36,199 bases of DNA from Acidimicrobiales bacterium. GTDB taxonomy: Bacteria; Actinomycetota; Acidimicrobiia; Acidimicrobiales; VFJN01. The DNA lies in NCBI GenBank assembly GCA_035316325.1, contig DATHJB010000002.1:1-36199 (forward strand), in the 5' to 3' direction. Below the pieces are notes generated by a model, which did not search any database, was not told the origin of the DNA, and was given only the letters and a program-made list of their open reading frames with translations. Below, piece by piece: positions 1 through 7,164 of this stretch (the stretch's first letter is position 1; each line of letters begins with the position of its first letter). Both the position numbers and the translations under genes were made by a program.

Positions 1-58
1 TCGAACCCACGCGCTTCGGCTTAAAAGGCCGCTGCTCTGCCAGCTGAGCTACACCCCC
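1..58 (-). tRNA. tRNA-Lys(UUU), 3' end cut off by window edge
   Basis: Read on the minus strand, this begins with a GGGGGTG acceptor strand, then TA and a GCTC...GAGC D arm. The anticodon arm has loop CTTTTAA, giving anticodon UUU, and the T arm breaks off at GTGGGTTCGA at position 1. The closing pair of the anticodon stem is a G-A mismatch. The rest of the T arm and the 3' acceptor strand lie outside the window, so pairing of the acceptor stem cannot be checked. Confidence 0.93.
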
Positions 59-5699: not shown

Positions 5700-6251
5700 G
5701 TGCTCGTGTGGATGGATCTCGAGATGACCGGGCTGGAACCCGCGAGGCACGTGATCGTGGAGATCGCCACGTTGGTCACCGACGACGAGCTCCAGATCGT
5801 CGCCAGCGGGCCCGACCTGGTGATCCACCAGCCGGCCGAGGCGCTCGCCGCCATGGAGCCGGTGGTGCGGGACATGCACACCCGCAGCGGGCTGCTCGAG
5901 GCGATCACCGCGTCGACGGTCACGCTGGAGGCCGCCGGCAAGGCCACCCTCGACTTCATCCGGACCCACGTGCCCGAGCCGCGCACGGTGCCGCTGTGCG
6001 GCAACTCCATCGGCACCGACCGCCGCTTCCTGGCCAGCTACCTGCCCGACATCGAGAACCACCTGCACTACAGGTCGGTCGACGTGTCGACGATCAAGGA
6101 GCTGGCCCGGCGCTGGTACCCCTCGGTGATCGACTCGGTACCCAAGAAGGCGACCACGCACCGGGCCCTCGACGACATCCTCGAGAGCGTCTCGGAGCTG
6201 CGCTTCTACCGGGAGAAGCTGTTCGTCCCGGTGACTGCACCACAAGTTTGA
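5700..6251 (+). CDS. orn: oligoribonuclease
   Basis: 183 aa, DEDDh 3'-5' exoribonuclease that degrades RNA fragments of two to five nucleotides, including pGpG, at the end of mRNA decay. Catalytic residues are visible as D6 and E8 (VWMDLEMTGL), D107 (CGNSIGTDRRFL), H154 and D159 (HRALDDILES). The length matches the E. coli enzyme. The start codon is GTG, at 6 nt from a TAGGGT box and without a ribosome binding site. The C-terminal part has the usual VDVSTIKELARRWYP and FYREKLFVP segments. Confidence 0.96.
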   Translation: MLVWMDLEMTGLEPARHVIVEIATLVTDDELQIVASGPDLVIHQPAEALAAMEPVVRDMHTRSGLLEAITASTVTLEAAGKATLDFIRTHVPEPRTVPLCGNSIGTDRRFLASYLPDIENHLHYRSVDVSTIKELARRWYPSVIDSVPKKATTHRALDDILESVSELRFYREKLFVPVTAPQV

Positions 6252-6262
6252 GGAAACACCTC

Positions 6263-6302
6263 TAATATTCCTTTGACGCAGTTGCCGCCCGTGTGGTGGC
6301 AT
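6263..6302 (+). promoter_or_regulatory. whiB7 promoter with AT-rich activator box
   Basis: A -35 TTGACG (6273-6278) and a weak -10 TGGCAT (6297-6302) are 18 nt apart. Immediately upstream of the -35 lies TAATATTCC (6263-6271), a rare AT-rich run in this genome. WhiB7 and WblC are known to bind AT-rich DNA next to the -35 with their AT-hook and activate with the primary sigma factor, including at their own promoter. The placement fits autoactivation. Confidence 0.55.
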
Positions 6303-6346
6303 CGCCTGCGAATGGCTGGATGACCCCCGAGGATGGAATCAGGACG

Positions 6347-6592
6347 ATGACTCGCAGCACCCTTCAACCGAGCCTCACGGCCGGTGCTGCGCGTCCTGGG
6401 ACCGACCGGGAGCGCGTAGCCCCCGCCCTGACGTTTGGTACGTCCCACGCCGGTTCCGGCGCGTTCGACTGCATTACGTCGATCGGCGCCGACCAGGCGT
6501 GGATGCAGGTGTGGAACCTCGACGCCAAGCCGGCGTACCCGGTCGCCCACACCGACCGAACCACTCCACGGCCTTTGGAGCGCTCACCCTGA
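6347..6592 (+). CDS. upstream ORF in the whiB7 leader (attenuator leader peptide)
   Basis: Candidate leader ORF of 81 codons starting at ATG 6347 after GAGGATGGAATCAGGACG; an in-frame ATG at 6320 would add nine codons. The peptide (MTRSTLQPSL...) has no family resemblance I recognise. What matters is position: its TGA (6590-6592) falls in the apical loop of an antiterminator hairpin, so a ribosome finishing it would cover the hairpin's 5' arm. Upstream ORFs that control whiB7/wblC by this logic are known in Streptomyces and mycobacteria. The start and real length are uncertain, the codon bias is weak for this genome, and only the stop position is strongly suggested by the structure. Confidence 0.5.
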   Translation: MTRSTLQPSLTAGAARPGTDRERVAPALTFGTSHAGSGAFDCITSIGADQAWMQVWNLDAKPAYPVAHTDRTTPRPLERSP

Positions 6593-6627
6593 GAAGGGAA
6601 AGAGCGCAAGGAACCTCCGAAGGCCGT
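6568..6627 (+). promoter_or_regulatory. antiterminator hairpin of the whiB7 leader
   Basis: ACGGCCTTTGGAG (6568-6580) pairs fully with CTCCGAAGGCCGT (6615-6627), 13 bp with one G-U. Inside it, CGCTC (6581-6585) pairs with GAGCG (6602-6606), and CCCT (6587-6590) pairs with AGGG (6595-6598) around a GAGA tetraloop. The 3' arm uses bases 6620-6627, which are also the 5' arm of the terminator, so the two structures exclude each other. Confidence 0.7.
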
Positions 6628-6649
6628 CGGGACAACCCGGCGGCCTTTT
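6620..6649 (+). terminator. intrinsic terminator in the whiB7 leader (attenuator)
   Basis: AAGGCCGTCGGG (6620-6631) pairs with CCCGGCGGCCTT (6636-6647), 12 bp with one G-U and an ACAA loop. It is followed by TT at 6648-6649 and a T-rich CTGATTCTT. It lies before the whiB7 start and in the same direction, so it should stop transcription unless the antiterminator forms. Confidence 0.75.
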
Positions 6650-6723
6650 CTGATTCTTGGACCCGATTCCGCATGCGCACCGAAACCTCACAGAAAAACG
6701 GAACCCAGCGAGGGGGAAGGGCA

Positions 6724-7164
6724 ATGATCGCCCAGCTCACCAGACCCAACGACGAACGAGACGAAGCACCCGACAGTCCCACCGGCGACGAGCTGGACTG
6801 GGCCGACGAGAACCCCATCTCGCCCGAGCTCGCCGCCACCGAGCACGGCTGGTGGGCCCATGCCCGCTGCAACGACGGCGGGGGTCAGCTCAACGAGCTG
6901 TTCTTCAGCGACGAGCTGCAGGACATCGCTCGGGCCAAGCACATCTGCGCCACGTGCCCGGCCCTGATCCCCTGCCTCGAGGGCGCCCTGGAGCGGCGTG
7001 AGCCGTGGGGCGTCTGGGGTGGTCAGCTCTTCCTCAACGGGAAGATCCTGGCCAGCAAGCGGCGTCGGGGTCGGCCCCCGAAGCACGCCCGCCCCGAGGA
7101 CCAGCTCCCGGACATCCCCATCCCGGAGCACCTGCAGGACGTGGCGGTGGTCCGCATCGCCTAG
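6724..7164 (+). CDS. whiB7: WhiB7/WblC-type transcription activator
   Basis: 146 aa iron-sulfur regulator. The four cluster-binding cysteines are C49, C75, C78 and C84 (C...CATCPALIPC). The sigma-binding loop is EPWGVWGG (93-100), and a C-terminal AT-hook RRRGRPPK lies at 113-120. The AT-hook is the hallmark of the WhiB7/WblC subfamily, which works with the primary sigma factor to switch on intrinsic antibiotic-resistance genes when translation is inhibited. About 45 acidic residues precede the first cysteine and an acidic tail of about 25 follows the AT-hook, so it is longer than mycobacterial WhiB7. Start ATG 6724 has a strong AGGGGGAAGGG ribosome binding site. A start at 6673 is possible but lacks one. 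The gene stands alone behind an attenuated leader. Confidence 0.88.
   Translation: MIAQLTRPNDERDEAPDSPTGDELDWADENPISPELAATEHGWWAHARCNDGGGQLNELFFSDELQDIARAKHICATCPALIPCLEGALERREPWGVWGGQLFLNGKILASKRRRGRPPKHARPEDQLPDIPIPEHLQDVAVVRIA

Follow-up and report, generated by a model that had tools for sequence, protein, structure and literature searches.

The whiB7 locus and its promoter

The window (the whole stretch of 36,199 nucleotides analyzed here) carries a gene for a WhiB7/WblC-type Fe-S transcription factor, preceded by a promoter, a leader open reading frame (uORF) and two overlapping hairpins (Table 1). The gene product matches the Pfam Whib family at 54.5 bits, and its closest solved structure is WhiB7 of Mycobacterium tuberculosis (E 1.7e-16), with other WhiB proteins at 1e-6 or weaker. 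Its translation contains ARC..CATC.....C, EPWGVWGGQ and RRRGRPPK, and it combines the features by which WhiB7/WblC proteins are recognized, namely, a WhiB domain with four cysteines, a GVWGG turn and a C-terminal RGRP AT-hook (here RGRPPK). No NCBIfam model matched this product. A first-pass annotation of the DNA had placed a WhiB7-type gene behind the leader and had tentatively assigned the source to Acidimicrobiia. Both assignments were borne out, the former by the Pfam and structure matches and the latter by the relatives of the source genome, which are Acidimicrobiales and Acidimicrobiia MAGs. In some Acidimicrobiales genomes, whiB7-like genes number two or three, with one pair separated by about 1 kb (loci L112, G012:C1:679970-681195, and L111, G204:C1:4345976-4347332). 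Elsewhere in the window, a tRNA gene is truncated by the edge (positions 1 to 58, minus strand; Rfam, 41.5 bits), and a very strong terminator-like hairpin (score 24) lies at position 888 on the minus strand, outside the attenuator.

Table 1. Features of the whiB7 leader region (positions in the window)
Feature	Position	Strand	Basis or remark
WhiB7-type promoter element: AT-rich AATATT (6264-6269), 3 nt, -35 TTGACG (6273-6278)	6264-6278	+	Consensus of relatives
Probable -10 hexamer TGGCAT, 18-nt spacer	6297-6302	+	About 93% of aligned promoters have TNNNNT after a 17- or 18-nt spacer
Leader ORF (uORF), 81 codons plus TGA	6347-6592	+	ATG 6347, TGA 6590-6592
Antiterminator 5' arm, ACGGCCTTTGGAG; also encodes RPLE of the leader	6568-6580	+	Sequence, energies, covariation
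Antiterminator inner hairpin (6581-6585/6602-6606 and 6587-6590/6595-6598) with the leader stop 6590-6592	6581-6606	+	Folds
Antiterminator 3' arm, CTCCGAAGGCCGT	6615-6627	+	Energies, covariation
Intrinsic terminator, GAAGGCCGTCGGG(ACAA)CCCGGCGGCCTTT (6619-6648), with U-rich tail	6619-6659	+	Folds, covariation
whiB7, WhiB7/WblC-type Fe-S transcription factor	6724-7164	+	Pfam PF02467; WhiB7 is the best match among solved structures

The promoter emerged from comparison with relatives, in which 73 of 78 leaders have TTGAC no more than 170 nt ahead of their start (6.7 expected), as part of a consensus WAAWT-CNN-TTGAC. This consensus resembles the published WblC box, GAAAWY, which lies 3 nt upstream of the -35 hexamer (PMC7157823). 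Judged by sequence, a WhiB7-responsive promoter thus appears to stand upstream of the uORF, with a predicted transcription start near 6309. A scan of positions 6180 to 6760 for the sigma-70 consensus found no site, the TGGCAT hexamer being too weak for the generic consensus. Tandem TTGAC boxes, 20 nt apart, precede one leader in L072 and in L095.

Two alternative hairpins

We picked the leader start at 6347 by comparison with relatives; an alternative ATG lies at 6320. The antiterminator pairs over 13 bp, with one G-U, and has an extension (6564-6566 with 6629-6631); sequence and energies confirmed both this stem and its two inner stems as first described. The terminator had been placed at 6620-6631/6636-6647 and is indeed present, but its stem is one pair longer at the base (6619-6631/6636-6648, 13 bp) and is followed by TTTTCTGATTCTT. 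Likewise, the claim that the two hairpins share bases and cannot coexist held, with the shared stretch running over 6619-6627 rather than 6620-6627, and the structures are predicted to be mutually exclusive. The leader stop codon, said to sit in the apical part of the antiterminator, does so in the window and in all 78 relatives whose leaders we analyzed, where it is held in a closed inner hairpin.

Comparing folds and energies, a check suggested at the outset, confirmed the pairs of both structures and gave z = -4.4 for positions 6560 to 6660 (0 of 200 shuffles as good). A terminator of equal strength appeared in 1 of 1,000 dinucleotide shuffles of the leader, and an antiterminator as good in 0 of 1,000 when the real terminator was kept and the upstream sequence was shuffled. 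In minimum-energy folds of the growing RNA, ends between about 6624 and 6645 give the antiterminator and ends at 6648 or beyond give the terminator, while blocking 6576-6604, the footprint of a ribosome at the stop codon, restores the terminator. Sequence, folds and the covariation described below therefore agree on a uORF that ends inside an antiterminator excluding an intrinsic terminator. A further hairpin, at 6540-6558, was considered as a pause signal and set aside; it is present in the window's fold, and the region is not conserved in the alignment of 55 relatives. Rfam, searched with the leader region at the gathering score and at E up to 1, returned no family.

Conservation and covariation in Acidimicrobiia

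About 80 nonduplicate Acidimicrobiia loci share this layout upstream of whiB7: a long open frame, a stop codon 24 to 35 nt before the terminator and GGCC-rich arms. We measured covariation in 55 Acidimicrobiia with a sequence-based MAFFT alignment (A1). In the terminator, 95.8% of cells were paired, 8 pairs had changed on both sides, and the covariation score was 0.275, versus 0.168 when shuffled. The antiterminator was 72.9% paired, versus 27 to 47% when slid, and contained 54 double-change cells versus 26 in shuffled alignments, and 0 of 500 shuffles reached its score; the covariation of 6568-6580 with 6615-6627, whose absence would have told against the first-pass annotation, is thus present. 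In one clade (L071, L072, L092 and L101), the entire antiterminator arm has turned into CTCCCAGCGG, and its partner has changed along with it. RNAalifold, given the MAFFT alignment, picks up the terminator only, since the alternative hairpins have bases in common and alignment by sequence does not bring the inner stems into register; we hence counted the antiterminator as a named structure. When RNA that stops at the terminator 5' arm is folded, the minimum-energy structure pairs this arm with leader sequence preceding the stop codon in all 78 leaders. With the leader sequence shuffled, the arm was still sequestered in 73% of folds, so that in GC-rich RNA folding by itself says little.

A covariance model found one strong site per genome, adjoining whiB7. 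Of the first 60 relatives, 45 have whiB7, and the model matched in 44 of these; it matched in none of the other 15. In the one whiB7 genome lacking a match (G056:C1:2194338-2194631), the leader may have diverged or be missing. None of the eight other WhiB genes of the source genome has such an attenuator. One locus in the set, L040 (PKRH01000025.1), is titled Thermoanaerobacterales, probably in error, since it appears to be identical to a contig of a genome assigned to the same family as the window.

The hairpins could be real and whiB7 transcription nevertheless start downstream of the terminator, or the terminator could close the oligoribonuclease gene (5700-6251) that precedes whiB7 and ends about 370 nt upstream of the terminator. 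However, a conserved WhiB7-type promoter lies between the oligoribonuclease gene and the leader, the antiterminator and the placement of the stop codon accompany the terminator, and the attenuator occurs only with whiB7. Since the conserved promoter is at 6264-6302, a start downstream of 6650, named beforehand as an observation that would refute attenuation, is also unsupported, and the sigma-70 scan offered no site for one. We give this explanation hardly any credence and conclude that 6264-6659 is very probably a ribosome-controlled transcription attenuator of whiB7.

An excess of complete amino acid inventories

The first-pass annotation took the leader ORF as generic. What appears to carry the information, however, is the set of amino acids that this frame encodes. 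The window's leader peptide, MTRSTLQPSLTAGAARPGTDRERVAPALTFGTSHAGSGAFDCITSIGADQAWMQVWNLDAKPAYPVAHTDRTTPRPLERSP, has 81 residues and contains all 20 amino acids, the last of them (Tyr) at codon 64 (6536-6538). This is weak evidence by itself, because about 6% of the 81-residue segments of the source genome are also complete. Across Acidimicrobiia, however, 49 of 78 leaders contain all 20.

In an ordinary whiB7 attenuator, any open frame translated to its stop would suffice, and a full inventory could be a by-product of even composition in a peptide under weak constraint. uORF attenuation of whiB7 is a published mechanism (PMC11550727; PMC13393426), residue identity drifts nearly freely, and mycobacterial leaders work without a full inventory, all of which would suit this explanation. 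Yet permutations that keep the pooled residue composition yield 8.4 complete leaders, with a maximum of 17 in 5,000 permutations, and matched segments of real proteins (from GC3-filtered genes) yield 3.6 of 78, with a maximum of 10; among small probable proteins, 8 of 96 have all 20. Read in its five remaining frames, this DNA averages 14.3 to 17.7 distinct residues, and codon-position shuffles average 17.5, versus 19.4 for the leaders. The 78 leaders form 29 groups without detectable similarity between them; when each similarity cluster is represented by a single leader, 15 of 29 are complete against 2.6 expected (z 7.8). The excess persists (z 8.1, one leader per cluster) without the final 10 codons, a region in which the antiterminator arm would be masked by the stalled ribosome.

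The counts of rare residues are also far more even than random. Of the 78 leaders, 51 have exactly one Cys, 48 exactly one Trp and 56 exactly one Tyr (variance/mean, 0.30 to 0.39), and the contexts and positions of these residues differ among leaders. The Trp column is fixed within clusters, so part of the Trp regularity is inheritance. At least one residue, mostly Cys, is absent from 29 of 78 leaders, a sizeable minority missing one or two; in one clade, Cys is wholly absent from five of seven leaders (L046, L050, L053, L061 and L064), with most other residues kept. Given the permutation results, the under-dispersed counts and z values near 8 in one-per-cluster sets, we regard a mere by-product as unlikely.

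Two other forms of codon sampling were considered and rejected. Sampling of isoacceptors finds no strong signal beyond the amino acids themselves (36.4 distinct codons per leader versus 36.1 by synonymous shuffling). A single-amino-acid attenuator of the trp/his type does not fit a leader in which all 20 residues are present and Cys, Trp and Tyr occur about once each; Ala, at about 16% in window-type leaders, is only 1.4-fold over a background of raw long ORFs that is contaminated by false frames.

Peptide or list

Alternatively, the leader might encode a conserved functional or arrest peptide whose fixed residues produce an apparent inventory. The fixed Trp columns within clusters would fit such a peptide, as would an RPxE-like motif that is widespread at the leader C terminus. 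This motif, however, falls on the antiterminator 5' arm and is accounted for by RNA pairing, and the leader body has no conserved motif, in keeping with the 29 dissimilar groups and the differing contexts of Cys, Trp and Tyr. In the closest relatives, moreover, dN in the leader body is near dS (0.06/0.05 for L016/L020; 0.31/0.29 for L050/L053), although more distant pairs are partly constrained (dN/dS of about 0.3 to 0.6); these counts are rough, the pairs being short and partly very divergent. Close sister leaders have Cys and Tyr in different columns, and in the group of L012, L016, L019 and L020, Cys lies at three different columns or is absent. Given that dN is near dS and that the Cys column shifts, residue order appears from these comparisons to be free while the inventory is kept. 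A conserved or arrest peptide is therefore very unlikely, and the sequence evidence suggests that selection has probably made the window's leader a checklist of the full amino acid set.

The attenuator in other Actinomycetota

The same uORF, antiterminator and terminator arrangement recurs in Streptomyces-like and mycobacterial genomes, labels that we inferred from protein sequence. This agrees with the first-pass annotation, which had recognized a logic known from these two groups and had suggested deep conservation; the comparison points to one design in Acidimicrobiia, Streptomyces-like and mycobacterial genomes. The terminators read AGGGCCGCGGAACCC... in Streptomyces-like and GGCCACGGACCC... 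in mycobacterial genomes and have a GGCC(G/A)C core in common with those of Acidimicrobiia. The proposal that the Acidimicrobiia sequence is different thus holds for the leader body, which is unrelated, but not for the terminator core.

All 20 amino acids are present in 12 of 14 Streptomyces-like leaders, and 39 of 94 Actinomycetia leaders are complete versus 7.5 by chance (one per cluster, z 4.7). Ten mycobacterial-family leaders consist of 32% Ala, none is complete, and several residues are missing, from which it follows that the full inventory is not essential for the switch. Their composition fits the alanine response of mycobacterial whiB7 mentioned in PMC10727445, where Poulton 2024 is cited for it. 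We consider it likely that the whiB7 leaders of Acidimicrobiia, Streptomyces-like and other Actinomycetota have been selected to include each of the 20 amino acids ahead of the antiterminator, in free order, as a universal aminoacyl-tRNA checklist that mycobacteria have narrowed to alanine.

Discussion

We observed the sequence features of an attenuator, which covary and are restricted to whiB7, together with structures that exclude each other in silico and a statistical excess of complete inventories. We quite confidently read the locus as a ribosome-controlled whiB7 attenuator in which the leader ORF works as a roll call of the 20 amino acids. Ribosome coupling, stalling, termination, induction and autoactivation would then play out in this organism as follows. 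Transcription would start near 6309 from the WhiB7-responsive promoter, and a ribosome would translate the 81-codon leader behind RNA polymerase. With all aminoacyl-tRNAs present and elongation free, the ribosome would pass the end of the inventory at codon 64 and reach the stop codon at 6590, where it would cover the antiterminator, so that the terminator could form and end transcription. If any aminoacyl-tRNA were missing or an antibiotic blocked elongation, the ribosome would stall upstream of 6564, the antiterminator would form first, and the polymerase would continue into whiB7. Even a ribosome stalled at codon 64, with a footprint of about 10 to 12 nt beyond the A site, should leave 6564 onward free. 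WhiB7 would then amplify its own promoter.

Several points weigh against the checklist reading: a minority of leaders are incomplete, one clade mostly does without Cys, and a leader with only one codon for an amino acid should not react when that amino acid is mildly short (PMC1183508). The last of these implies that the sensor would answer to real stalls rather than to small dips.

whiB7 is induced by amino acid starvation and by many ribosome inhibitors (PMC12121999; PMC11550727), and according to PMC12121999, antibiotic-induced stalling within the whiB7 uORF has not been tested. If the checklist reading is true, it explains how one short uORF answers to starvation and to many unrelated inhibitors, since the leader would sample all of translation and not one drug or one tRNA. 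In Streptomyces, depletion of any single amino acid should then turn wblC on through that residue's codon. Intrinsic antibiotic resistance would be linked to amino acid homeostasis in an old, mostly uncultured class. As far as we have found, this would also be the first demonstration that selection can act on an attenuator leader for a complete amino acid inventory and not for repeats or peptide sequence. The attenuator of whiB7 is itself very probably a phylum-wide RNA switch, set by a ribosome as it reads through a short leader peptide.

Comparison with known systems

A uORF attenuator of whiB7/wblC in Streptomyces and mycobacteria is reportedly the subject of work by Lee et al. in 2022, Burian and Thompson in 2018 and Dinan et al. 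in 2014. The switch described here belongs to the published whiB7/wblC kind (PMC4128351; PMC10727445; PMC11550727; PMC13393426): it has in common with it the WhiB7 gene, a leader of about 400 nt, a uORF stop codon about 30 nt before an intrinsic terminator, an antiterminator overlapping the end of the uORF, a WhiB7-type promoter box and the GGCC(G/A)C terminator core. It differs in its host, a member of Acidimicrobiia, and in a leader body unrelated in sequence. The new part is the leader inventory, of which we found no mention in the accessible literature. All 20 amino acids are common to Acidimicrobiia and Streptomyces-like leaders and absent as a set from mycobacterial ones. The alanine-responsive mycobacterial whiB7 uORF (Poulton et al. 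2024) combines the same gene and switch with amino acid supply read through leader codons; the ten mycobacterial-family leaders compared here have 32% Ala and no complete inventory, whereas in the present case all residues are represented and Ala makes up about 16%.

As in trp/his-type attenuators, the position of a ribosome in the leader peptide would select the antiterminator or the terminator; those leaders, however, repeat the codons of one amino acid, whereas here each rare residue occurs about once and none dominates. Finally, uORF-based sensing of several ribosome inhibitors is also known from toiL (PMC12121999) and from ARE ABC-F leaders (PMC12421871), which rely on short uORFs with defined stall sites, in contrast to a long leader that would sample all amino acids.
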